Shown: positions 1 to 17,758 of the stretch, in pieces
How the letters are laid out: every line of letters begins with the position of its first letter
How positions within the stretch are numbered: the stretch's first letter is position 1
Source of the DNA: Arabidopsis thaliana
Lineage: Eukaryota > Streptophyta > Magnoliopsida > Brassicales > Brassicaceae
Length of the DNA: 64,000 nt
Direction: 5' to 3'
Assembly (NCBI RefSeq): GCF_000001735.4
Contig: NC_003074.8
Span: 2,294,101-2,358,100 of the forward strand
The notes under the pieces: model-generated
Database searches by the model: none
Told to the model about the DNA's origin: nothing
Seen by the model: only the letters and a program-made list of their open reading frames with translations
Translations under genes and position numbers: made by a program

Positions 1-1019
1 AACATCAAATCCAGCAGATCCAGGACTCCAAATCATTTCATCAGTTGAGAGTTTGATGAGATTGTCGGTAGCTACAACTAACTTTCCCTCGCCGATCTTG
101 AGTTCATTCTGATTGGCATAGCCTAAGAGGTACACCACACTCCCTAGATCCAGGTTTGGTTTGGAACATGTCTTCAGGTAATGTGGTTGTTGTTGAAGTT
201 GGCTCTGGGAACTTGAGTCTCCATCAACAAGGTCTAAGCCAACAATAGTGAGATCAATAACTGAACTCGTAATGAAAAACCTGCAAATGACACCATATAA
301 AGATAACACTCATTTTCTGATAGCTAAAGAACAGAAAACACCATCATTGACCAAACAAATCCACAATTCAGATTGGTTCTTATTATGTTTGATGCAATCA
401 AGACGTTTCCATTTTGGGAAATATCTGAACAAATGAATTTTCATGTTCCAATAATCACAAAATGATATATCAATGTTTTGGTTTAAAGTTTATGAAATTA
501 AAATGAAAACTTACCAAATTCAGCTACAGATCCAGAATCATTACCATATAACATAAGTACAGTATAAAGCTCTTTTCTTTTAAGTTCTTTTGGTTTGACG
601 AAAAGATATGGATTCATTTTTGAAAATTTGAACAAGAGCCAATTTTTTTGATGGCATTGCATCAAAATTTACCAGGATCGTGCAACCGACAACACAGGAA
701 AATGAAAAATCAAATTTTGAATCAAACTCAAGAGAGAGTAAAGAGAGAGGTGGGACCTGTGAGGGAAGAGAGCAGCAGCGACACCGTTCTGAAGGCGGAC
801 CTCGGCGGTTTCGGTGGCGGAGATGGAAGGAAGATTGAGGTGAGTGGTCAGAAGAAGATTCCGGTGAATGAGGAATCCAGTTCCAGAAGTAACACCATTT
901 GGTCCGGAGACAGAGATTCGAGCCATCGCCGGAGCTTTGCCGGTAAAAATGGAACCTTTCATCTTCTCGCTTTTGCCAACTCCTTTACAAAAGCACCATG
1001 AGTCCAATATCACTCCCAT
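1..1019 (-). CDS. Trypsin-like serine-protease-fold protein (partial, C-terminus outside the window)
   Basis: Two exons are visible: 757-1019 and 280 down to the left edge, joined across a GT..AG intron at 281-756. The join keeps the frame and gives 181 residues before the window ends. Motifs resembling a trypsin-2 fold are TSGTGFL then LLLTTHLNLP (candidate catalytic His60), VIDLTIVGLD (candidate Asp97 or Asp104) and PGSAGFDV (candidate Ser176). The last replaces the usual GDSGGP-like signature, so activity is doubtful. There is no obvious signal peptide. The ATG at 1019 is the first in-frame start after a pyrimidine-rich leader. The family is inferred from spacing of motifs only, and I do not recognise a named gene. 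By position it should be the neighbour preceding At3g07220. Confidence 0.6.
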
Positions 1020-2223
1020 TGTCTCTCTATCTCTTGATTATGCTCTCAGATGGGTTTTGTGTCAAATTCCCTAATTTGGCAATCTGGGTTTTGGAGGAGA
1101 GTGTTTTGGATCTGAAAAGGATGGGAATTTAGGAGAGAAGTGTGAATTGGATGCGAGTTAGTAATAATGGGATTAGGGAGACACAACACATGTATGTGTC
1201 TGTGTCTGTTTGTGCTGTAAAAACATCAACTTTCTCCGGATTTGGTCTCGATGAAGACCCAAGAATGGGAGAAAACTCGAGAAGAGGTAAGTGAGAGAGA
1301 AACAAGAGACAGGGGAATCGTGAAATGAGTAAAGAGATGTGCTTCTTTAAGGAGCTAGCTGGGGACTTCTTCTTCTTCTTTTATCACTTTTATTTTTTTC
1401 TTTAATTCAAAAGAAAATGTATAAAGATTGGGGGAAATGTTTTCTTTATTTGGTTTAAGTGTGTCATTTTGTAAGAAGAAGCAAACAGAGGAAAAGTCTA
1501 GAGTGACAGAGAGGATCTTTGTACATGTGATGAACATGGATGGACTTTTTGCTTATTATGATTAGTGTTTTTTGCTTAACGTTTTCTTTGCTTGTCGATT
1601 TGTCTAATCATGGTTTCATTAACTTATATCTCTCTTTGTTATCAAATAGATTTGGTCATTTAACCAAATTGTAATGTATATGATTACCAGTTTTAACCAT
1701 CTCGGCAAAAATGTAAAATTAAAACGACATTTCCATTTCAGAAATCTAGCTTATAATAAACTTGGAATAGTTACATGTTGTTAGATTGGTTCAGTTATGG
1801 TTGCAAGTCAATTTATTATCACTTATCAGCATTCAAGTCCAACTTTTTACTTCAAAACAAACAAAACTAGAAAATCCAATTCAATCAATTTTATTGGAGC
1901 ATTTAAGTTAATCTCAAGTAGTTTAAACTTGAAAGAGTTGGATTCACAACTTATTGTATACACGAGAAAAAATGTAACAAACGATATTCCAAAAAAAAAA
2001 GTCAATTAAAGTGAACTTATCAGAATAACATTGTTCTTCATCATGTTTAAAACCCCAAAACAAAATCCAATTGCAAACACCGGTTTCTCAATGTACATCT
2101 CTCAAAAAAACATAGTAAACGACTGTACATAATGAAAATGGGAACTCTTTCTATGAACCATCGAAGACTCCAAGTATTCTATTACACTGGTTAGGGAGTT
2201 GAAAAGAAGTAAACCATAATGTG
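1020..2223. other. Intergenic: 5' flank of the protease-like gene and AT-rich DNA
   Basis: Positions 1020-1330 read as promoter and leader of the minus-strand protease-like gene. A TGTGTCTGTGTCTG-type stretch lies near 1195-1212. From 1340 to 2223 there is only AT-rich DNA; the open frames there are short, unconserved in appearance and lack splice support. Confidence 0.5.
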
Positions 2224-2710
2224 TCAAATCCGATCCAACATCAATTCCGTTAGCGCTTAAGAAGTCTTTTTGCATCTGCAATATCCTGCAATATAACAAT
2301 AGCACCAAAACAAACTAGTACATAATCAACATTAACAACAGCTAGGAGCAAAAGCACTAGTCAAGAACTTAATTTAACCTTAATTAACAATTCGAGTTAA
2401 CAAAGAAAGAAAAGAGTACTGAAAGTACCCGCTGCAGAAAAACTGCTTCTTTAGGAGAGGTAGGGAACTGCACTAAACCGATTCCAACAATTAATAGCAA
2501 AGGACACTACAACGTATATAGGTAGCTGGTGCAAAGATATACATTATTAATATTGACTAACTGAGAATAGCAATAAGCAAAAATGAGCACAACAGACTCA
2601 TTACTAACCAACTATGTTTGGCTACGAGCCATAATTGCAGCCTGCAAGAGAGCAAACTAAAAGGCAGAGACAGCTACCAGCAGGCTCAAAATCTTGACCA
2701 CATGCTTCAT
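2224..2710 (-). pseudogene. Degenerate DPM3-like copy (dolichol-phosphate mannose synthase subunit 3)
   Basis: Read on the minus strand from the ATG at 2710, the sequence follows the layout of DPM3, a small two-helix ER membrane protein that anchors the catalytic DPM1 subunit. It gives MKHVVKILSLLVAVSAF, then LLQAAIMARSQT, then LPIY, then VGIGLVQFPTSPKEAVFLQR. An intron at 2286-2428 (GT..AG) follows, then DIADAK and DFLSANGIDVGSD. Damage is clear. TAG stands where Trp is expected after SAF and again after RSQT. The hydrophobic middle is shortened and scrambled. One extra A after DIADAK shifts the frame. The retained intron argues for a DNA-level duplicate rather than a processed retrocopy. 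Family assignment rests on recognition of the motif order. The intact parental gene is not in this window. Confidence 0.72.
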
Positions 2711-3867
2711 TGTCCTTGAAACAAAGTTTATGTAAGATTTGAGTATTGACAATATACCAGAAAAGAGGACTACACTAATGCATTTTCCGATTTCTTGCAT
2801 ATTTGGAGCTGACCATGAACGGGTGCCATTAAAGGATATCTATAGAAGTGAATTCCTTCAAATAACAAATTGCCAATTCTAAATCCATTACGCATAATTT
2901 CCACACATCTTAAGCAACTTATGTCCAGACCAGAATCTAGCATAGTCATGATAACTAAAAGAACAGTAAAATGCAACCCAAACCATCAAAATGGGAAAGG
3001 AAAAAAAAACGACTTTTCACATTTTCTTGGATCTCATAATACAAGCGGTCAGGAGCTCAAAGCCCTTTAAGCATAATTTGTAGAACCTGAATCTTAAAAA
3101 AAAAAAGAAACACAAATACATGATTTCCCACCGTTCCTCAGGATTTTAAACATTCTATAGTCAGATCCTCAGGAAATCAAAGCCATTACACAACACATTT
3201 CAGAACATTATAGGCTAAATGATTTGAAAACTTGAATCCTAAAATTCATTAAGCTGCCCCAAAACCAAGCTTCTACTAACAAAACAAACTACAATTAACC
3301 ATCCGAATCAAACCATGCACCCAAAACTCGAATTGAAATTTGATATATCTAACAATGATTGAGCTGCCATCAGAATGAATTATTAGAAAATAATTTTGTC
3401 ACGGTTCCTTCAGACCAGAGTAAACTCCAATCATCCGAAACTCAAAACCCTTGCGCAAAATTTTCAATCATCATTTGGCAACTTATTCAATCAAACCAAC
3501 AACGAAAATAAACAAAAGGTTACATAAAACTAACCAAGCCTATGTTCTAAAGCAAACGAAATCAAAAAATTCAAACAATCAATAAGATGCTCCACTATTT
3601 GCGGGAGAGATGGAACCTTTAAGCTCACAGATCTCGCCGCCATTCTCAATGTTTCTTCGGCTGTTTTAAATAGTTGTGTCATTAGGGTTTTTATTCAGGT
3701 CTTAAAATCATGGGTATAATCGTCAATTTCACAAAATAAGCCTTTGTCCTGGATAAGCTAAACCAGTTTCCAAACAAATCTTGCTTCGATTCACAAATTA
3801 TTACGATTGCAATCCCTAATTTGGAAGTCCCGGTTCCTCTTTCGATCAAATCGGAGAATTTCACGGC
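2711..3867. other. Intergenic and bidirectional-type promoter region of the first FHA gene
   Basis: Mostly AT-rich. A 37-codon minus-strand frame starts at 3643 (MAARSVSLKVPSLPQ) and ends at TAG near 3533. It could be a first exon or leader of a minus-strand transcript, but no downstream exon could be joined to it. An AGGGTTTTT telo-box-like element lies at about 3686. The stretch from about 3710 to 3867 resembles the flank before the second FHA gene (about 15452-15603), for example ATGGGTATAAT followed by TTTCCAAACA in both. Confidence 0.45.
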
Positions 3868-5307
3868 ATGGCTACGGCTGTTGGTGGCGGAAGCGATGTG
3901 GAGGTTGGATTTGCGAAGCTTCAAGGTGAGGATTTCGAGTACTATATGCAGTCTTACTCCATTATACTCGGCCGGAATTCTAAGAAAGCCACCGTCGACG
4001 TTGATCTCTCATCCCTCGGCGGTGGGATGAACATCTCGCGCAACCACGCTCGGATCTTCTATGACTTCACTAGACGACGCTTCTCTCTCGAGGTCCTTGG
4101 CAAAAATGGCTGCCTCGTTGAAGGTGTTCTTCATCTCCCTGGGAATCCTAACGTCAAGCTCGATTCACAAGACCTTTTGCAGATCGGAGACAAAGAGTTC
4201 TACTTTCTCCTACCGGTTCGGAGCATCTTAGGCGGGCCGTTGGGACCTAGGCACCACGTCTCTGGGCAAACAAGTGTTGTTCCATACCATAATTATCAGT
4301 CGGGTCCAGGTTCTGGGTCGGGTAAGAAGGGCGTCAGGAGTAGAGAGTTGTATGAGTACGATGATGAAGATGATGATGACGACGACGATGAGGAGGACGA
4401 TATGAGAGGAAGTGGAAAGAAAACAAGGAGAGATGGACATGAAGTAGTATATGCTTCCGGAGGTAAAACCAGATTGCTCATGATTGTTTGAGTTTTCATT
4501 GTGCAACTAGATATGTTTCAGATTATGATGCTTACTTGATCACATCAGGCTTGTTTCTTTAGACTTTGATTGTGGTGGTTGCTGATTGAACCTTGTTAGA
4601 CTTGGATTGAATTTGAATGCTAGTGACACCACGACATTGTATCTGCTTCATTTGTGCAGAGAAGAAGAGAGAGGGAAGATCAAAGGTAGATCGTGAAGCT
4701 GATGATCAACAATTTTTGCAGCTGGAGGAAAAAGATGTTGTATCGTCTGTTGCCACTGTGCTTTCCGATTTGTGTGGTCCGGGAGAGTGGATGCCTATGG
4801 AAAAACTTCATTCGGTGGTTAGTTTTTATGAGAAAGTTCCTTGCCTTTTTCTAATACAGAATGTAGTACGAGTAATCAATTGAAACAAGACTTGTATAAT
4901 GTCAAGGTGATAATTAGTGTGAAGCTAGGTCCTTAATTAGTTTTCCAATGGAAACGCGCTACGCTACTTATATGTGTCTAAGTCTAGAAAGTATGTCAGT
5001 TACTCCATAGATTTTGAATGACTAGTGTAGTCTGACTATGAACTTCTTTGTGATTCAATATGATGGCTAATGCATGGTAGTGGTTGGTCTGTGACAGATA
5101 TTAAAGGAGTATGGAAACGTATGGCATCACAGTCGAGTAAGAAGATACCTATCACAAGAAGACTGGGCTATCCCTGAAGCAAAAGGTAAACCATGGTACG
5201 GTTTGCTGATGCTGCTGAGAAAATACCCGGAGCATTTCGTCATCAACACGAGATCAAAGGGAAGAGTTACCCTTGAATTCGTTTCCCTCGTTACCCTACT
5301 CTCATGA
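3868..5307 (+). CDS. FHA2: Forkhead-associated (FHA) domain protein, full-length copy
   Basis: Three exons, 3868-4462, 4660-4817 and 5098-5307, total 963 nt (320 aa) with all junctions in frame. The FHA phosphopeptide-binding domain occupies about residues 30-115: YSIILGRNSKK carries the GR signature, ISRNHARIFYDF the SxxH signature, and LGKNGCLVEG the NG signature. A Gly/Ser linker, an Asp/Glu tract (about residues 165-180) and a Lys/Arg-rich stretch follow, consistent with a nuclear protein. Exon 3 encodes a conserved helical segment (HHSRVRRYLSQEDWAIPEAK ... RKYPEHFVIN) resembling a winged-helix-like module. Length and position match what I recall for At3g07220 (FHA2, related to tobacco NtFHA1, linked to stamen development). 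A second, damaged copy lies at 15604-16530. Confidence 0.9.
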
Positions 5308-5819
5308 GAACTTTACCTTAGTGACTCGGATTAAGATTTAAGAAGCTTTTCTCTCTTTTCTTTGTTTCATATGTAAAATATTTTGGCATTGATTAGTAAC
5401 ACGCTGTGTCGTTTTTCTGCACCCAAAAACGCCAACTTCTTGGTCCTTGCAGTTGAGAGATTTTGATTTTCTTTTTCTTGATTCTTATTTTTGATAAACC
5501 CATCGAGATTTTTCTTTCATCAAAGGGCAAAAAATTCGTGCCAATTCAGAAATCGTTATGTTCGGTGGATTTGGGCCATAAAAAGAGAAAAGGCCGAAAC
5601 AGAGAATGATCCAAAGTGGCTCAAGTACGTATCCAGACAATATAAAAAGGTTGGAATGTGCAAACTTAGGGTTATACTCGTATCTTGTAGCAGCCACTAA
5701 AGCAAAATTCTGAGATCGAAAAAGCTATATAAAAAAAAAAAACTGCTTCCGTTTCATCGATTTTGTCCAGATCTTCCCCTTCTTCCGGTAATCGAAGCTT
5801 ACGAGATAGTTGAGTGAAG

Positions 5820-6083
5820 ATGATCTATGATGTGAACTCTGGTCTATTCAGATCCTTCCTGAGCCAGAAGGGTAGCTCGTCCGACAAAAGGTACAAAATC
5901 TTGTCTTGTCTGATCCAAATATGAGATTATCTCGATGTTGTTCCCAGATCTATCTATTGATGTGTCATTCTTCTCATCTTCTTAATTCTCATCATCTTTT
6001 TATGTTTAATCAGGAAAATGGAAGATAAGCCAAGAGAACAGAAGCCCAAAGCCAGCGACAACAAACCTGTTATGAATGAATGA
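5820..6083 (+). CDS. Wound-responsive-family small protein, 46 aa
   Basis: Two short exons, 5820-5890 and 6014-6083, are joined across a GT..AG intron with a split AG|G codon. They give 46 residues: MIYDVNSGLFRSFLSQKGSS at the N-terminus, then a Lys/Glu/Pro-rich hydrophilic tail ending PVMNE. No signal peptide or membrane segment is present. The sequence matches the very small wound-responsive-related proteins of plants (position of At3g07230). Biochemical function is unknown and the tail looks disordered. Its 3' end faces the converging minus-strand NTF2/RRM gene whose stop is at 6479, leaving about 400 bp for both 3' UTRs. It is easily missed because neither exon reaches 30 codons. Confidence 0.85.
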
Positions 6084-6478
6084 GAACAGATTACATCTTC
6101 TTGTAATTTCTCTTTACCTATTTCAGTTGTAAGGATCATTTTAATGAATTAAGTTTCTTTCCTATGGAATTGTCATTTGCCAATTGGCTTTGGGTTATTT
6201 ATCTTCTGAGATTGGTGGCCAGAGTCAAAAAATCCCAAAATTCGCATAAAAATCTTAACAAACATCCCATTCATTGATTCCTTTCGTAAGTTCTTCTATT
6301 GATCATAACGAGTGTCTGATTGCCGAAATCCAAAACACCTTAAAGAAAAGCTTCACAATGAATCCAAATATCTCTCAACGCTGTTGTCACTACCAATAAC
6401 CAAAACTGAACAGTCAGTTGGTAAAACCCATAATTTGTCTATGTAAATTGCAGGCTACATCTACAAAACTGGTCATGT

Positions 6479-8339
6479 TCAGTTCTGATTCTGCACTCGC
6501 TGATCAAGCTTCTTCTTCACTTTAAGTTTTCGCCGACCAATCAACAGAGGAGACGCCTGAATAAGATTCATGCCAGGCAGCATTATCAATAACACTTGTG
6601 GCTTCAAGAGATCAAAGTGAATCCCAACTAAGAGACAGAGCAATAAGTATAAATAAGGTCCAGGTCCAAAGCACGTACATTTACTGCTCTCTCGGCAGCA
6701 GCTGCATGCACAAACTTCACATTACCAAACCAATTGCCCTACCAGTTTCATACAAGTACACAAATCAGTGTTTCCATTAATAAGAAAAATTGCTTGTTTT
6801 ATTAGATTACTTAATTACACTTACCACACCACGGTTAGAAACTTGAACTCCTCCTCTTTTGATTGGTCCAAACTGCTTAAATGCGTTCTCTACCCAGTCA
6901 GTGGTTACATTTGGAGGAAGGTTTTTAACGTGAACTGCAGCATATAACGCTGATACAAACAACAACAAAAATGTTAAATACAGTGATTCATCTATCTGCA
7001 GCTCACAAAAACAAATCATAAGTATTTCTTTTACCTCGAGGCTCTTGATTATTCTCATTTCCACCCTTATTACCATAATCTTTTGTTACGCTCATTCCCT
7101 CGCTTCTGTATATGATTCCTGGTCCAGTGGATGGAGTATCCCAGTATCCTGATTCTCAACCAAACAAAACCGGAGCCTTGAGCACAATTCTTTGACAAAT
7201 TAACAGAGACTATTATTTACTAATACTCCCACAAACTCACGTATATAGTCAGGTCGCTTCTTCTCCACGTAAACGCTACGCAAATCAATCGTTACAGGAG
7301 AAGCCTGCATAAGATTCATGCCAACATTATCAAAACCAATCAGACAGTTCTGAAATTGAACCCCCAAGTAGTCAGTCCGACCAAATGCTAGCGTTTACCT
7401 TTATTGCTCTCTGGGCGGCATTTTCTTCCTTAAACTCCACGAAGCCATAAGAAAAGCTCTACCAGTTTCATGAACACAATTTAGTGTTTTTGTTAACGAA
7501 GCTTGTTAGTATCTAGATTAGTTAACATTTACCCTTTTGTTTCTAACTTCAACTCCACCTCTTCTGATTTCTCCAAACTGCTTGAATGCATTCTCAACCA
7601 AGGCAATGGTTGCATTTAGAGGAAGATTTTTAACGCAAATTGCGGCTACACAGAAAGTTATAGAGCAATGTATAAATAAACAAATGGGATAGTGAACGAC
7701 ACATTTCCTTGCGAGCAAAATATGGAGGCTCCACTATTACTCACCATTATTAGCAGGAGGAATGGTTGCATTAGCCTCGGGTATGCCAACAAACTTGAAC
7801 ATGTCAGTCGAAACAAAGAGGCCTTTTTCTTGGGGAGCAAAAGTGAAGTTTTGTGTGAAGTTCCTTGCAGGCCTCTCGTTGAAAGTGAAGTAGCCATCAA
7901 CAGCAACGCGAATACCCTTGTCATGAGAGTCTTGGGACATGACACTGGTTACCTCAACCGAATCAAAACCACCAGGAGATAGCATATCAAGATCCTCGAT
8001 TATATCCTGCTCCAAGATTAGGAATCAGTAACAGACCAATGTTACTTAATGAACGACTCAGTCAAGAAAATTGTCTAACCGGTAGGGTAGAGGAACGCAT
8101 CGTTCCATCAAGTCCAGGCCGTGTAATCTTACTGACATCTTTATAGTAGCCAGGGAGAATCTCCGGGGAGTTTTGCAAGTTGTTATAGTAGTGCTCTGCA
8201 AATCCGTCCCCAATCTATACGTTTTATGGAGAGAGTTGCAAATTTACAATCACTGAAAAATGAAATCCGATGGAACAGAGCATACAATTGTTTGGATTGT
8301 ATATACCGCTTTAGCAGAAGGTCGTGCAGGAGGATGCAT
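6479..8339 (-). CDS. NTF2-domain plus two-RRM protein (G3BP-like), shorter tandem copy
   Basis: Ten exons on the minus strand: 8307-8339, 8080-8214, 7745-8006, 7533-7645, 7399-7458, 7241-7304, 7035-7148, 6825-6949, 6679-6738 and 6479-6556. They sum to 1044 nt (347 aa), all in frame with GT..AG borders. Residues 1-143 form an NTF2-like domain (GDGFAEHYYNNLQNSPE, then GLDGTMR, then VDGYFTFNERPARNFTQNF). RRM1 is about residues 144-222, with RNP2 AICVKNLPL and RNP1 FSYGFVEF. A short linker precedes RRM2 at about 261-347, with RNP2 AVHVKNLPP and a weak RNP1 NWFGNVKF. NTF2+RRM is the architecture of plant G3BP-like RNA-binding and stress-granule proteins, but those normally have one RRM. It is a tandem duplicate of the gene at 9079-12371. 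My recollection is that annotation may treat the two as one locus (At3g07250). Confidence 0.82.
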
Positions 8340-9078
8340 TGGTTCAGAGAGCTAAGCAATGCCCTGAATCTAAAGATCAAAATTCCAAACTCAAGATCCT
8401 TAAATCTAGCCAAGTACATAAGCATATAACCAAAGAATGCAGTCTTGAACAAAATAAATGGGCTACGTGTTAAGAATATCATGGAAGAAGCAAAGATTTT
8501 GCCTTTACGTTTAACTCGAAAAACCCCATTGCTGATCTAATCCCCAAACCAAAGATAAACCAAAACCGTGGAAAGAAGACTCACCTGAAATCGTAGCGAG
8601 AGAGAGAGGTTTGTGGTAGGGAAGAAAACCCTATTGAATATGAATATCTCCGAGGTCTGCGACACCACCTTCAATGGTGGTTTTGAGGGTTTATTCGCGA
8701 CAAGGAAGAAGCAGGTCAGAGACGAAGAGCGTGAGAGAAAAGTGCTGACACTCGCAGAGAGTCCTATTTATGCAATTTCGTAAGCTTTACATATTTACAT
8801 TTGTTGCCACTGAGTAGCGCGCTAAAACGGGTCTACGTCTAACCGTTGACCGTTTTATTTTCAAGGAATAGTTACGTTGTTGGTTGGTTATATATTTATG
8901 TGATAGTATATTTATGCTCACATGAATTTATCTCCTTTAAATGTCACACATCCAGATTTTCAGAACTTGTTTGGGCATTGATGCCACACTTTAAGAACCA
9001 ATATCTCTGGCTCTCTGCGTGTTCTTTTATCACAAATCAATGATTCTATCATTACAATTACATGGGAGCTAGTCAAAA
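8340..9078 (-). promoter_or_regulatory. Leader and promoter of the shorter NTF2/RRM gene
   Basis: On the minus strand, a TATA-like ATAAATAG lies at 8764-8771, about 120 bp above a probable 5' UTR intron donor (CAG|GTGAGT near 8584). That intron would run to an AG at about 8366, just above the ATG. The block from 8764 to about 8810 (TATTTATGCAATTTC, then ATTTACATTTGTTGCCACT) is repeated before the longer gene at 12806-12853. The duplication therefore carried its promoter with it. Confidence 0.55.
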
Positions 9079-12000
9079 TCATAAAACACCCGAAAAAAAA
9101 GCCGCAATATCTTCAATATAACTAGTCTGGTTCTGTTTTGATTCTTCCTCTTCTTGCTCCTCCATTATCTGCTCATAGTCCCAAGAATGATCAACTTGTG
9201 TTTCTACCGCTTCCTCCTGAAGCTTACTCTCTTCCTCCAGAACCTTGCTATGTTCCTCCTCCCAAGAATGATCAACTTGTATTTCTCCCTCTTCCTCCTG
9301 AAGCTTACTCTGTTCCTCCTTTGACTTCTGCCACTGCCAGTCCCAAAAGTCAAAAGCTTCTGTTCCTCTCACTTGCTCGCTTCCATATCTGTTTTGACTT
9401 CCCTGTTCCCTGTGACCTGATTCTGAAAAGTCAAACCAAAAGAAGCCTATTCAGCACCCTTCTTTGCACGTTTTTGAGTTTAGCCAATGAAAGTTACCTG
9501 CACCTAGCGGCACCGAGGTGTCTCTGCAGGTTGGTCTTGTGTAACGCTTCCCTGCACCTGCACTTAGCTTCTTCTGCACGTTAACGTTTTTCTCACAAAT
9601 CCTCACAGGAGACGCCTGAATAAGAGATTCATGCCAGCATTATCAAGAGATCAAATCGAATCCCACAAAACATTTAAGAATAGTCCAGTTTCAAAGCGTG
9701 TAGTGTACCATTATTGCCCTGTTGGCGACATCTGCTTTCTCGAAGTCCACAAAAGCAAATTTATAGAGCTAACAGTTTCATCATACAAGTAGACAAATTA
9801 GTGTTTCCATGAAGAATAAGAAGAAGGGTTCAGAAAAATGCTTGTTAATATATTACTTGAACACTTACCGGACCAGATTTTATAATTGAAATGGCATTAA
9901 TTGGTCCAAACTTCTTCAATGCATCCTCAATCAAGGCAAAGGTTACATCTAGAGGAAGACGTTTAAGGAAAACGGACGCTGATAGATAAACAAAGAGATA
10001 TGTCAAAAGTAGAGTTGATAAAAACAGAGTTGATACCATTGTTACCCACCATTATTACCTTCGTGAGATTCTGTTCCTTCTTCCTCCTGAATCTTCCTCT
10101 GTTCCTCCCAGTTTTGGTTCTCTTCTTCTTCTTCTTCTTCCTCCAGACCAACTCCTTCTGTTCCTCTCACTTCCTCGCTTGTATATCTGTTTTGATTGTA
10201 TTGTCGCCCTTCTTCCTCCTGAAACTTCATCTGCTCCTCCGATTGATTCATAATCTTTTGCCAGTTTTGCAAGTCATAAACATCTGTTCCTCTCACTTCC
10301 TCCATCTTCTGCCAGTTACAAATGGGATTACCTAGTGATCCTCTCACTCCCTCGCCTCTCTTTATGTTTCCTGGTCCATCGGATGGACTTTCATAGTAAC
10401 CTGATTCCAAAACCAAACAAAACTAGACCCTTCAGGAATTTCTTTGATCGTTACATTGACTAACTAATAACTCCCACATACTCACCTTCATAGTATGGTT
10501 GCTTCTGCTCCACGTAAGTTGTGTGGCCATCAACATTTAGAGGAGACGCCTGAATAAGATCATGCCAGCATTGTCAAAGTCAATCTAACACTTAAGGCTT
10601 CAAGAGATCAAAGTGAATCCTAACCAAGATTCAGAACAAATGTATAAAAAAGGTCCAGGTCCAGGTCCAAAGCAAGTACCTGTATTGCTCTCTTGGCAGC
10701 ATCTGCTTCCTCAAACTCCACAAAAGCATACCAATAGTTCTACCAGTTTCACACAAATGTAACCAAATTAGCCTTTCCATTAATAAGAAAAATGCTTGTT
10801 AGTAGATCACTCAACACTTACCGAATTAGCAGGGTTTATAACTCGAATTCGTCCCTTTTTAATTGGTCCAAACTGCTTAAATACACTCTCAACCAAGGCA
10901 ACGGTTGCATTTGGAGGAAGGTCTTTTACACGAATGTGTGCATCTTCAGTTATAGCTGGTAAATAAACACACAAAAGGTTACGGAAATTGAGACTCCTCA
11001 CTGTATACATAAACGGGAAGGAGAAAAGACAAACTTTTTACCTTGAGAGTCCTGACTGTTCCCATTTCCAGTATCAGCACCTGCATCAGCTTTTATATCT
11101 GTTGAGTGATCACAAGACTAAACCAAACAAAACTAAAGCCTTTAACACAATTCCTTGACAGTTACAGTGACTAACTAATACTCACTTTTATTGTAAGCGT
11201 ACTTCTTCTCCACGTAAGTTCTGTACCCATCAATACTTATAGGAGACGCCTGAATAAGATTCATGCCAGCATTATCAAAACACCGATCAAATAATTAAAC
11301 AAGGGTCATCAAGGTCCAAAGCGCCGACCATTATTGCCCTGTTAGCGGCCTCTGCTTCTTCAAACTCCACATAAGCATATTTCCCAGTACAGTGCTACCA
11401 GTTTTATACAAGTAGACAAATTAGTGTTTCCATGAAGAAGAAAGTGTTCAAAAAATAAAAAAGGTTGTTAGTGGAATAACATTTTACCCAGTTGATTCTA
11501 ACTTCAACTCCACCTCTTCTAATTTCTCCAAACTGCTTAAATGCATTCTCAACAAAGGCAATGGTTGCATCTAGAGGAAGTTTTTTAGCGCAAATGGCTG
11601 CACCCTCAGAAGCACAAGATAGCTTGGGAACATTATCAAAACCATGATTTGGTTCAGAAACTCTCAGAGCAGCTCCCTCCGTTTCTGGAACTTTCTCCTC
11701 TATGACTGAACCATTCGCATTAAACCAAGATCTTAGACACTTACTTCCTCGCAAAGCAAAATATGGAGGCTGCTTATAATTGAACTGTTACTCACCATCA
11801 TTAGCAGGAGGAATGGCTGCATTGGCCTCGGGTATATCAACAAACCTGAACATGTCGGTGCAAACAATGTAGCCTTTTTCTTGGGGAACAAGAAAGAAAA
11901 CTTGTGTGAAGTGCCTTGCAGGTCTCTCGTTGAAAGTGAGGTAGCCATAAACAACGACGAGGATACCCTGCTTAAGAGAGTCTTGGGACGTGACGCTGGT

Positions 12001-12371
12001 TATCTTAACCGAATCAAAACTACCAGGAGATCGCCATTTAAGATCTTTCTGTTCCAAGATTAGGAATCATTCAAGAGAACAAAGATTTCACCAAAGTTAC
12101 TAAGTCAATCAGGAAAAGTATCTTTACCGATAAAGTGAAGACACGCATCGTTCCATCTAGTCCAGGCCGTGAAATCGTACTCTTATCTTTATAAAGCTTA
12201 TAGAGATTCTCCGGGGCGTTTTGCAAGGTGTTATAGTACTGCCTTGCAAACTCATCCCCCACCTACGTTTATACAGAGAGTTACAATCACAGGACAATGA
12301 AATCCGAAGAACAGAGCATACAGTTGTTGGATCCTATATACCACCTTTGCAGTATTTGGACGAGGATCCAT
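9079..12371 (-). CDS. NTF2-domain plus three-RRM protein with Glu-rich linker and tail
   Basis: Fifteen exons on the minus strand: 12345-12371, 12128-12262, 11796-12048, 11488-11705, 11329-11394, 11186-11249, 11042-11098, 10822-10955, 10680-10739, 10486-10549, 10059-10400, 9869-9978, 9709-9768, 9498-9615 and 9079-9422. They total 2052 nt (683 aa), every junction in frame. Residues 1-138 are NTF2-like. RRM1 is about 165-254 (RNP1 GKYAYVEF), RRM2 about 274-359 (RNP1 YWYAFVEF), and RRM3 about 474-550 (RNP1 YKFAFVDF). A Glu-rich linker (360-473) follows RRM2 and a Glu/Gln-rich coiled tail (570-683) follows RRM3. The likely role is RNA binding with NTF2-mediated dimerisation or partner binding in the cytoplasm or RNP granules. 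The exon-4 acceptor is uncertain: an in-frame alternative (GTGCAG|CCATTTGC, near 11603) would drop about 34 residues. Confidence 0.8.
9180..9341 (-). repeat. Two copies of an 81-bp in-frame repeat in the Glu-rich tail
   Basis: Two adjacent copies, 9180-9260 and 9261-9341, share CCCAAGAATGATCAACTTGT and TTCCTCCTGAAGCTTACTCT on the plus strand. In the protein this is a 27-residue unit beginning SKLQEE and containing QVDHSW. The period is an exact multiple of three, so the copies stay in frame and lengthen the acidic tail. Confidence 0.8.
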
Positions 12372-13188
12372 CGATACAGAGAATATGCAATGCCCTGTAT
12401 CTCAAATCAAGTTCCAAACGCAAAATCGTTAGATCTTGCGAACATAATCATAAAAGAAATGGTGAGAAGCAGCGGCTAACACAAAAGAAATGACTTATTT
12501 GTTAAGAAATGACGAAAGAAGTATAGAGATTGTCTTCACGTTTCACTAAATCAAAAGCAAAAGATGCATCGCTGATCTAATCCTCGAACCAACGATAAAC
12601 CGGAATCGCTGAAAGAAGACTCACCTGAAATTACAGCGAAGTAGTGAAGAAGATTGAATATGAGTATTGAGTAGCTCCGAGTTCTTCCACACCCACTCCA
12701 ATGGCGGTTCCTACGGTTATTCACCAGAAGGAAGAACAGAGGAAGAGACGAAGAGCGCGAGAGAAAGAAGGTGCTGAGAATTTCTTTTTATTTGGATTTT
12801 TCGTCCTATTTATGCAATTTCATAAAATGTTTATATTTACATTTGTTGCCACTAATCGTTGAGCGTTTTCGTTTGTTTGTTAGTAAAATCTGTTACTTTT
12901 TAACTGCTTTATTACTAGAGAATATTTGTTGACGAATTCAAACCATATGAAATTGCATAAATAAACAAATATATATACAACTACACGAATTCTTCACTTT
13001 TACTGATACGTTAATAAGAGAGACAATGCAACAAATTAAGTGTAAAATTAGTTGAAAAATGTCAAGGAAAAACAAAACTCTAAGAAAATCATGGATGGAG
13101 AGTCCCTTCGAACTCAAAACGTCCATCGGTGAAACTTATATACACAAAAACGAGACAAAAAGAGTAACAAAATATGTAAATTTGTAGT
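12372..13188 (-). promoter_or_regulatory. Leader and promoter of the longer NTF2/RRM gene, then spacer
   Basis: A TATA-like ATAAATAG lies at 12806-12813 on the minus strand. A probable leader-intron donor (TTTCAG|GTGAGT) follows near 12624, with its acceptor (ATACAG|GG) close above the ATG at 12371. This arrangement matches the shorter paralogue. From about 12860 to 13188 there is only AT-rich spacer, including the 3' flank of the AFP-like gene. Confidence 0.55.
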
Positions 13189-14226
13189 TCACAAAGTTGA
13201 GGGAACAACGGTTATATGCCTCAACGGATGCGACACATTAGTCCCACCGGCGTGAACGATGAACTCAGCCGGCGAGAAAGACGTTCCATGGCAGACGCAG
13301 ATTATACTGATCTCTGATTTTGAGTAACGGTATAGAAAACCATTTACGGTTTTGCCCTCGGGACCGTTACCGGTGCTAGTCACGCAAGGCATCTGAGCAA
13401 ACGGAAGCAAACTGCCGTTACCGTTACTGTTGGTATGCGGTTTTGGCGGCTTCCCACTCTCTTTGGTTACAGAAGAGTTGGACCATTCTTGGGTCTCCGC
13501 GTCTTTTGAACCGTCTGTGTTATGCACGGTTTGCTCTGTACCGGTCAGAATGTTGTTAACCGGAGATCTAACCTGTTTGGTTTGGCCAGATTGTGCCCCA
13601 ATGTCGCCACTTCCACCTGAACATTAACCATAATTCAAAATCATCTACATGCAAATAGCATAATTTTCGTGATTCTTTAACAGAATCAACACATCGAATT
13701 ATATACTAAAAAAAAACTATATACATATACCAACCAATTTTAGTTTATTTTTAAAAGAAGGTTGTTATATACCTTCTTGGCGAGAAGAGCTGCTAGGATC
13801 GGATACGGAGGAGGAGGTGCAAATGGGTGACCCAATCGTAACGTCTTTACTGCTTTCCTTGAGTCGACCCGACCCGTAACCGTTACACATGTTGATAGAG
13901 CTCAAATCCATATCATCGCCGTTACTAACTCCGTTATATTCTGTTCTGATCCTCTTGCACTCTCCTTCTTCTCCGCTTCTCTGCTGCTGCTTCGCCTCCC
14001 GCTTCTTCCGTGTTTCCTTTATCCTCGTCACATTCGTCGTTCTGCCGTCAAGATTAACGCCGTTATCCTTCTCGAATCCGACGGCGTTAGATTGTCCAAA
14101 TGTTTTAGATTTCTCCGTTTTCTTGAAAGGACCTCCCAGGGAAAGACATAGCTCGAGCTCGAGCTCGACCTCCACATTCTCATCTTCTACAAACTTTTCT
14201 GCCATTGATAAAGATTCAACAAACAT
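13189..14226 (-). CDS. AFP/NINJA-family transcriptional co-repressor adaptor
   Basis: Two exons, 13773-14226 and 13189-13616, give 293 aa from the ATG at 14226, or 286 aa from an in-frame ATG at 14205. The shorter form begins [20 protein letters not shown]. An EAR-type LxLxL motif ([14 protein letters not shown]) lies near the N-terminus, followed by a basic [14 protein letters not shown] stretch like the family's conserved middle motif. The C-terminus carries the JAZ/ABI5-binding domain: [19 protein letters not shown], then [12 protein letters not shown], then [10 protein letters not shown]. Family members bind ABI5-type bZIPs or JAZ proteins and recruit TOPLESS through the EAR motif in the nucleus. 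The upstream CACGTG cluster fits ABA-responsive expression. I cannot place it among the named AFP1-4 genes, which I recall at other loci, so no symbol is given. Confidence 0.82.
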
Positions 14227-14553
14227 ATAATGTCAAAAAGATGGTCTCTTGTCTTCCGCAAAATTTTCCTCTTGAAGGGTTTTGAAGCTTCGCCAACTTT
14301 GTTGTATGAGAAAGGAATATTATAAGGGGCGGAGATAATTAAAAAGAGAATGGTAAAGGCTTCGGAACATGACACATGTCCGATAAGGATAGTGGACATG
14401 GGCGGTTTCAAAATTCACTAAGAGAAAGGTTAAGAAACTTTATTAGCGCTACAATTTCGGATTATCGATAAACGCTTTCCATTTATTTTGTTGGTTTCTA
14501 TTTCCATTGGTTGTAAAAATCAAGTAAAATTTTGACGAAAAGTACCGAGACGC

Positions 14554-14827
14554 CACGTGTAACACGTGCATGGAAACAGTTAACACGTGTACACTGAGAT
14601 CCTGCTGGCTTTGACGAGGACACGTTGGGTGTTTTGAATTCTTGTGTTCGTATCTGACTCCGCGAATCTCGAGCATAAACACGACCCCGGGATTGACATG
14701 TGGCGACCATCTTCGAGAGACAGTGCAATAGGTTAGACAGTCCAGGTCAGCAAATGACGCCGTAACGGTTATTCTCATCTGATGTGTGTCGACGTGGTTC
14801 ATGTTTGGCTGGCTTCATGGGCACGTG
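14554..14827 (-). promoter_or_regulatory. CACGTG (ABRE/G-box) cluster upstream of the AFP-like gene
   Basis: Four perfect CACGTG palindromes occur at 14554-14559, 14563-14568, 14584-14589 and 14822-14827. Related ACGT cores lie near 14621 (GACACGTTGG) and 14790 (CGACGTGG). They sit about 330-600 bp above the start codon. A TATA-like CTTATAATAT is at about 14317-14326 on the minus strand. ACGTG elements in tandem are the known signature of ABA-responsive promoters bound by ABF/ABI5 bZIPs; bHLH and HY5-type factors also bind CACGTG. Confidence 0.7.
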
Positions 14828-15603
14828 CTAGATGACAAATGGCTGTAAAGAATTATGTTGAGTAGATAGATGACTCGTGTCTTTATTCGAATAGTGGAAT
14901 AGCTTGTTGAAGTTGCTTTATTATAGCTTGGCTATCACAAGTTCCAGCCTTACTCTTGCATGAATTGCACCTGGAAAGTGGAAAGAGGATTGAGACTATT
15001 TGAATTGTTGACAAGAAAAACAAAGGAAGATTCTGCGAATACACTGTGGAATATAGCAAATGTTCTTTTCTCGTTGTGATTTTTTCGGTTGATTAAATGT
15101 TTAACAAAATGTAAAGCAAAGATTCTAGAAAAAGAAAACCATTCTTGACTTTGCTATTTCTTTGACAAAAATGTGACGATATTCTTATGAACTTTTCATC
15201 ATATTTTATCATCATAATTTCAAGCCTTACGGTTATCACATGATCCATATTCATGTCAATGTCATGCTTATCCCCGAATATTACATACTACTGGGTTTAT
15301 GTACATAAGATCCGGTTCACGTTAATGGGCTGATGCTTTTTAGATAAGGCCCAACTAAAGCTGTTTCTTTTGTTAGCCGTGGAAACAAACTGCCCGTTTT
15401 GATTTGATCGCCGTAAGGCCCGTAACATTGACAGTGGAGAGGCTGAAAACATGATGGGTATAATAGTCATTTACTTGAGAAGCCTTTATATTTTTCATTG
15501 TACGGTTTAACCACAACATATCTAAACCGGTTTCCAAACACATTCTATTACTATGTAACCCCAAATTTGATCTCCGACTTCAAAATCGGAGAAATTTCAC
15601 GGC
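14828..15603. other. Intergenic, ending in the promoter of the second FHA gene
   Basis: No open frame of note. From about 15452 the sequence resembles the flank of the first FHA gene (ATGGGTATAAT near 15453 and CCGGTTTCCAAACA near 15528), marking the 5' edge of the duplicated FHA unit. Confidence 0.5.
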
Positions 15604-16530
15604 ATGGCTACAGCCGTTGGAAGCGGGAGCGATGTAGAGGTTGGATTTGCGAAGCTCCAAGGTGAGGATTTCGAGTACTATATGCAGTCTTACTCCATTA
15701 TTCTCGGCCGGAATTCTAAGAAATCGACCGTCGACGTCGACCTCTCATCTCTCGGCGGTGGGATGAACATTTCTCGCAACCACGCTCGGATCTTCTATGA
15801 CTTCACTAGACGACGCTTCTCTCTCGAGGTACTTGGCAAAAATGGCTGCTTCGTTGAAGGTGTCCTCCATCTCCCTGGGAACCCCAACGTCAAGCTCGAT
15901 TCACAGGACCTTTTGCAGATTGGTGACAAGGAGTTCTACTTCCTGCTTCCGGTTTGGAGTATCCTAGGCGGTCCATTGGGACCCAGGCACCACGTCTTAG
16001 GGAAGGCTACTGTTGTTCCGTACCATAATTATCATTCGGGTCCAGGTTCCGGGTCGGGTAAGAATGGCGTCCGGAGTAGAGAGTTGTATGAGTACGATGA
16101 TGAAGACGACGATGAAGAGGAGGATATCAGAGGCAGTGGAAAGAAAACATGGAGAGATGGACATGAAGGAGTATATGCCTCTGGAGGTAAAACCAAATTG
16201 CTCATGATAGCTTAACTTCATTGTGTCACTAAATAGATTTCAGGCTTGTTCTAGACTTTGAGTATAAGTTTTACTGTGGTGGTTGATGATTGAACCTTGT
16301 TAGACTTAGATTGAATGATAGTGACACCACGACATTGTATCTGCTTCATTTGTGCAGAGAAGAAGAGAGAGGGAAGATCAAAGGCAGATCGTGAAGCTGA
16401 TGATCAACAATTTTTGCAGCTAATGCATGGTAGTGGTTGGTCTGTGACAGATATTAAAGGAGTATGGAAACGTATGGCATCACAGTCGAGTAAGAAGATA
16501 CCTATCACAAGAAGACTGGGCTATCCCTGA
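15604..16530 (+). CDS. FHA domain protein, C-terminally altered duplicate
   Basis: Two exons, 15604-16186 and 16358-16530, give 756 nt (251 aa), the length I recall for At3g07260. Residues 1-115 are almost identical to the copy at 3868, with intact FHA signatures (ILGRNSKK, ISRNHARIF, LGKNGCFVEG). The acidic tract is four residues shorter. Exon 2 begins normally (EKKREGRSK). After QQFLQL it runs directly into what is intron 2 in the other copy, because a 344-bp segment equivalent to 4725-5068 is missing. Translation then continues through the former exon 3 in a different frame (ending RRLGYP) and stops at 16528-16530. The protein should therefore bind phosphopeptides but lacks the conserved helical C-terminal domain. 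It could be a shortened regulator or a decaying gene. Confidence 0.85.
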
Positions 16531-16660
16531 AGCAAAAGGTAAACCATGGTACGGTTTGCTGATGCTGCTGAGAAAATACCCGGAGCATTTCGTCATCAAC
16601 ACGAGATCAAAGGGAAGAGTTACCCTTGAATTCGTTTCCCTCGTTACCCTACTCTCATAA
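16531..16660 (+). pseudogene. Untranslated remnant of the FHA C-terminal exon
   Basis: After the new stop codon the sequence still matches exon 3 of the intact FHA gene: CCATGGTACGGTTTGCTGAT, then CCCGGAGCATTTCGTCATCA, up to the point equivalent to its stop (CTCATAATCATC here, CTCATGAGAAC there). It is the fossil of the C-terminal domain, left outside the frame by the deletion upstream. Confidence 0.85.
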
Positions 16661-17758
16661 TCATCGAGATGATTGTTAGTGCAGGAGCAGGATGATTGGT
16701 AGTATATCTTTTATGTTTCCACGTAATGAGTGTATAAGTGGGTGTTAGGTGTTTTGACCTTGGTGACTCGTCGGATTAAGTTTTTCTCGCTTTTCTTTGT
16801 TACGTTGTATATGTAGAATGACAATGACATTGATGAGTAAAACACTCTCGGATTTAACCTTTTCTCTCTCTTCAAGAAATCGCATAAGCTATTTTCAGCC
16901 ATATACATACTATAGCCTATATGGCTATTCAACATTAATACACTCTCGGGTAAATTTAACCTTTTAGTTGTTTTCTTATGGCGAAAGCGGATTTGGTTTG
17001 CATATTATTTAGTTGAAAAGAAAAATCAAACGAGAAAATATATCACAACCCAAAAGTATACTATACAAAATTCAGATAAAGTTGTCTCAAAAGTACTATG
17101 CATAGTACAGATAAAGTTGTCGGAAGGAAATATTAGTATGATTTTCCCCGTCTCATTACTGTACATCACTTAGTCAACGCATACACTGTTAAAAGTCAAC
17201 ACATACAATCATTCAAAAACGTTTGGAGTTTAACACATAACACATCACAAGAGTGATCATCACAAATTAGAAGTTTATTTTACAAACTTGAGCCTATTAA
17301 GTTTTTACTTTTTGGCCTAATGAAAATTGAAACCACTTTATTCAAACCCAAAAATCAACTTTCTTCTCTTGTTTTATCGGTGGTCAAGATCTAGGCTGTT
17401 CGCAATAACATTTATTATTTTTTTTTCCAATAATTTCGTCTTTAGTACCAACTTTCGTTTTATATATTGCTGCCGTACAACTTGCACTTGCTTACATGTT
17501 TATTTGTCTACAAATTATTACTTAAAAGTTAAAACAATATACAGAGAAATCTCCCTAAGTTATTGAGTGATAGTTTTAAGTTTTTTTTGTGAGATAAATT
17601 AATTACTATTTAGTATTTTACGTAGGTTTTGGTAAGATTCTTCGATTTTTTTTTTACTTACAAAAACAATAGAAAAAGACTGATGCATGACAAAATTCTT
17701 AGAAAAAAAAACTGATGCATATGATAACGTGAGTGAAGTTGGTGCTTAGAGTTGCTAA

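Follow-up and report, generated by a model that had tools for sequence, protein, structure and literature searches.

A 345-bp deletion in a duplicated FHA gene of Arabidopsis thaliana probably arose with, or soon after, a recent gene conversion

The DNA analysed here, referred to as the window, is a stretch of 64,000 nucleotides of the Arabidopsis thaliana genome (contig NC_003074.8, positions 2,294,101 to 2,358,100), and it carries two related FHA genes, an intact one and a truncated second copy (Table 1). From position we take the intact gene to be At3g07220 (AtFHA2) and the truncated one, on the same grounds, to be At3g07260. The PF00498 (FHA) profile of Pfam matches the predicted proteins of both, with E values of 1e-9 in the intact protein and 1.2e-10 in the short one and with a profile score of 42 bits against a gathering cut-off of 20.7; apart from FHA, there are zero Pfam domains in either protein at E up to 1. 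The residues GR, SRNH and NG, which we assume to be the phosphopeptide-site residues of the FHA domain, are the same in the intact and the short copy when the proteins are compared. The acidic linker of the second copy is shorter by 12 nt (4 codons), approximately positions 4369-4380 of the intact copy being absent near 16104. An AlphaFold2 model of the FHA part encoded by exon 1, made with a two-row alignment only, has a mean pLDDT of 36.6, too low to rely on, and a search of the PDB with the 251-aa protein gave 0 matches at E up to 0.001. In the literature, At3g07220 is called AtFHA2 (PMC13159116) and At3g07260 is entered as an FHA gene (PMC3485569).

Table 1. Features of the two FHA genes, in window coordinates.
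Feature	Position	Strand	Remarks
Intact FHA gene	3868..5307	+	Exons 3868-4462, 4660-4817 and 5098-5307; conceptual splicing, GT-AG introns, single open 320-aa frame (predicted)
Segment of the intact gene without counterpart in the second copy	4724..5068	+	345 bp; equivalent placements down to 4721-5065
Truncated FHA gene	15604..16530	+	Exons 15604-16186 and 16358-16530; predicted product of 251 aa
Probable left part of the tract	16319..16385	+	67 bp, single difference at 16385; intron 1 ends within it
Run identical to the intact copy but for the gap	16386..16658	+	273 bp; would form the core of the conversion tract
GCT at the deletion junction	16419..16421	+	Common to both edges, 4721-4723 and 5066-5068 of the intact gene
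Intron 2 remnant	16422..16450	+	29 nt; predicted to be exonic (read through) in the second copy; ends at the old acceptor
Rest of the original exon 3 sequence	16531..16658	+	Past the new stop, predicted to be untranslated; module protein match with one TGA inside

The two FHA genes are separated by a cluster of paralogous repeated units at 6500-12850, whose longer blastn matches show about 66-77% identity and which, in four comparisons, show no strikingly long identity runs. These units were presumed to be RRM/NTF2 genes; this label was dropped when five open reading frames of the cluster gave no Pfam RRM match, and none of the best 150 of 455 RRM candidates in the genome lies at 6500-12850. 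Two adjoining copies of an 81-bp repeat, 79% alike, are found at 9148-9309.

When the two genes are aligned, the second copy shows one large gap, and across this gap the copy-to-copy coordinate spacing shifts from 11698 to 11353. The truncation of the second FHA gene, as proposed in the original prediction, is borne out by this alignment, though the shift in spacing makes the deletion 345 bp long and not 344. Similarly, the GCT said to stand at both of its edges is present at the right edge exactly where it had been placed, 5066-5068, but at the left edge it occupies 4721-4723 rather than 4722-4724. The second copy lacks 31 codons and one base of exon 2 (94 nt) as well as donor 2, and its intron 2 is shorter by 251 nt, in agreement with the loss of the 3' part of exon 2, its donor and most of intron 2 that had been foreseen; the old acceptor of intron 2 is kept, its donor absent. 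If 4724-5068 is cut out of the intact gene, what remains matches 16386-16658 base for base along 273 bp. The 20-mer that spans the junction has a single occurrence in the genome, and a genome search found no extra copies of the deleted segment. Microhomology of at least 3 bp is available at 58 of the 1053 placements (5.5%) of a 345-bp deletion in this gene, and the 3-bp GCT is weak evidence of the mechanism by which the deletion formed.

Outside their 3' ends the two copies have diverged considerably: in exon 1 dS is 0.38 and dN 0.033 by the Nei-Gojobori method, and the duplicate pair, judged from sequence, is old. Upstream of 4621, 67 of the 714 aligned columns differ, against just 1 of the 340 in 4621-5305 (Fisher 6e-11). 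The final 273 shared columns hold zero differences (P about 6e-10 under random placement, 0 of 20000 permutations). This run takes in 29 bp of intron 2 as well as approximately 48 synonymous sites of exon 3, at which 0 differences are seen where about 14 would be expected from exon 1. To the left of the junction, 103 columns contain 1 difference, which was equalled in 78 of 100000 permutations, a test that was picked post hoc and is to be read beside the 813 of 20000 permutations that gave a stretch of 104 columns with no more than one difference somewhere in the left part.

Five control comparisons within the window gave no run comparable to 273. Over the remaining 713 columns of the FHA pair the longest identical run is 56, a length reached in 1076 of 5000 permutations, and in four comparisons of other repeated units the longest runs are 25, 28, 34 and 38, reached in 2665, 2602, 548 and 174 of 5000 permutations, respectively. 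The run of 38, between 9568-9958 and 11202-11580, is mildly unusual on that count and possibly marks a short conversion, but it is of another order. Immediately after the tract, about 95 bp of the second copy (16659-16753) have no clear counterpart in the 3' flank of the intact gene, and homology between the two flanks restarts at about 16754 and 5312. The 95-bp segment starts near a short perfect inverted repeat, AATCATC-GA-GATGATT, and a genome search with 16640-16800 as query returned itself alone.

We consider it likely that a recent non-allelic gene conversion, for which the sequence gives strong support, homogenised the 3' ends of the two genes, and that the 345-bp gap most likely arose during this conversion or soon after it. 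The second copy goes back to an old duplication of the FHA2-type gene (3868-5307); the stretch from roughly 16319 or 16386 as far as 16658, its 3' end, would have been made identical to the counterpart in that paralog, which lies 11.7 kb away. A genome search (E up to 10) found the C-terminal module, the product of exons 2-3, at these two loci only, which makes the intact gene the only visible donor. Copying would most likely have run from the intact gene into the short gene, a direction that we infer from parsimony. The gap lies between the GCT triplets, inside the proposed tract or at its left edge, and it would most likely have been made in the course of the conversion, by slipped or microhomology-joined repair, or soon afterwards, although this order, too, is one that we infer. 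Its effect is to strip the gene of donor 2 and 31 residues and to throw exon 3 out of frame.

The position of the gap relative to the tract bears on the order of events. As the right flank of the gap lies firmly in the tract and the left flank probably does, either the deletion would have formed with or after the conversion or an older gap would have stayed unpaired, and the former is favoured over an older gap kept as an unconverted loop. The difference at 16385 may reflect a later mutation; alternatively, the left edge may be 16386, with 36 bp of the tract left of the junction. The mutation rate is 7e-9 per site and generation, and with this rate zero differences in 273 bp correspond to a 95% limit of about 0.8 million generations. 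Because the conversion would be recent, the present 3' end of the short gene would be young, however old the duplication itself.

The identity is symmetrical between the copies and would equally be seen if the second copy, prior to its deletion, had given its 3' end to the now-intact gene; such a reversal is unlikely, as it requires a separate later deletion and is less parsimonious. A plain 345-bp microhomology deletion with no conversion at all, in which strong constraint accounts for the 3' identity, is scarcely credible: GCT does stand at both edges and the gap itself is real in the alignment, but the identity extends to the intron 2 remnant and to silent sites (0 against about 14 expected), and also to bases that the second copy reads in another frame or that follow its stop. 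A microhomology deletion was the event originally proposed, and what stands of it is a deletion with GCT edges; it fails to explain a right flank that is identical to the intact paralog, and a left flank that is nearly so, beside an exon 1 with a dS of 0.38. Such a pattern requires a recent gene conversion.

As to the product, the second gene most likely specifies an FHA protein of 251 aa that lacks the C-terminal module. In the predicted frame the old acceptor is read through, exon 3 is translated in another frame, and the frameshifted tail runs to a new stop that ends at 16530. The original frame of exon 3 survives past that stop, where a match to the module is seen at 16531-16658. PF00498 still matches the short protein, while 31 residues of the module are deleted and exon 3 is out of frame. 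On all these points, from the read-through of the acceptor to an FHA domain deprived of its C-terminal module, the original prediction agrees with what the gene models give. Exon-junction-dependent mRNA decay is escaped by transcripts that have their stop in the last exon; because intron 2 is gone and the new stop is in the last predicted exon, decay of this kind is not expected.

Splicing could, in principle, bring the end of exon 3 back into frame. We enumerated 1559 hypothetical GT-AG combinations, consisting of one intron or of intron 1 and a second intron, within limited ranges of donor, acceptor and length, and in 139 of them the end of exon 3 is read in frame again; in the subset of these that was inspected, the acceptors are inside exon 3. 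Because the locus no longer contains the DNA for the 31 deleted residues, the module cannot be restored in full by any splice form. A frame-restoring splice form, which had been put forward as a refutation of the loss, would accordingly be a weaker one than was stated.

Scans of viral contigs and of prokaryote contigs for the module gave 0 relatives each, and against solved structures it has two PDB matches, neither of them significant (E 0.84 and 1.2). Assignment of the module as a winged-helix/LOTUS domain was considered and is unsupported, Pfam reporting FHA alone and the PDB giving no significant match; the 9 genomic OST-HTH matches all lie away from both FHA genes.

The two genes share little sequence upstream. 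Between 13000-15603 and 1-6400 there is one 22-bp match (blastn, E up to 0.01), and the main alignment of both genes starts about 20 bp before the ATG; the global alignment adds short, scattered matches further up. Because the upstream DNA shares so little, the regulation of the two genes can differ. A survey of the response to chloroplast H2O2 lists At3g07260 at 22.7-fold GO/WT, from two replicates, 0.5 h after the shift that starts H2O2 production, and it lists At3g07220 at log2 values of 0.37 and 0.45 (PMC3485569). For FHA2, binding to 4-PP-InsP5 is given with a Kd of 4.90 uM (PMC13159116).

What the short gene does is a separate question from how it arose, and the two readings of its function, decay and competition, are both compatible with the conversion history. 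We put at about even the chance that the second copy is in decay and that its product serves no function. This reading accommodates the lost module and the frameshifted tail, a dN/dS of 0.24 in the linker against 0.03 in residues 1-125, and the substitutions R118W and R183W (numbered on the second copy), two of those that separate the copies; it is less easily reconciled with an FHA frame that is open and has retained its Pfam match, or with the reported induction of the transcript (PMC3485569).

The competitor originally envisaged is a conceivable role for the predicted short protein. In its fuller form the proposal is that the protein is a selected competitor, induced in oxidative stress, which takes the phosphorylated partners of FHA2 or its inositol pyrophosphate ligand without performing the function of the module, and this we regard as improbable. 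The FHA domain has been kept, with GR, SRNH and NG unchanged between the copies; At3g07260 is strongly induced and At3g07220 hardly at all in one survey (PMC3485569); the small upstream likeness leaves room for different regulation; and FHA2 does bind 4-PP-InsP5 (PMC13159116). The low dN/dS of residues 1-125, however, is not creditable to a young truncated form, and the expression figures come from two replicates and from genes that have 240 bp of 3' sequence in common. This dN/dS averages over the whole time since the duplication, and the constraint on exon 1 therefore mostly predates the truncation. The present state is most likely that of a transcribed loss-of-module allele rather than of an established competitor.

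One could go further and suppose that overwriting and truncation came from one repair event: after a break in the second copy, FHA2 would have served as the repair template, with a template jump from one GCT triplet to the other, and a full-length paralog that already had a stress-responsive promoter of its own would at once have become an FHA-only decoy damping FHA2 signalling (ISWI or inositol pyrophosphate) in oxidative stress. We think this very unlikely. A fairly ordinary conversion-plus-deletion event is our preferred account, and a young stress-induced decoy has an outside chance.

Intergenic gene conversion between duplicated genes is known in A. thaliana, RPP8 being an example (PMC6771003). 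The FHA pair resembles RPP8 in that sequence has probably been exchanged between paralogous loci of the same species; it differs in that RPP8 is of the NLR family, whereas here one pair of FHA genes in one genome shows one abrupt tract and a 345-bp gap that truncates one copy. In its product the short gene is reminiscent of trans-microProteins, being a shortened relative of a larger protein in which one domain is kept and another part lost. The size differs: known trans-microProteins are given as under 120 aa and were searched for up to a limit of 140 aa, and the short FHA protein, at a predicted 251 aa, lies above both (PMC5381583). Compared with FHA2 itself, the short gene is a direct paralog with the same FHA domain and linker, but it is without the C-terminal module encoded by exons 2-3. 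Among the listed titles and abstract openings of mostly open-access papers on At3g07260, At3g07220, FHA2 (also with ISWI) and AtFHA2, we found no description of the 345-bp deletion or of the conversion.

The case illustrates that a deletion in a diverged duplicate can fall within a gene-conversion patch, and that its age and meaning then change. With such a patch, the truncated form can hardly be judged by a low dN/dS of the remaining gene. In practical terms, the two genes are identical over 240 bp at their 3' ends: reads or primers confined to this stretch cannot separate FHA2 from the short gene, while discrimination is possible at the junction, in exon 1 or in the 3' flank where the two differ. 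If the short form is active, it would offer a natural test of the role of the C-terminal module of FHA2.
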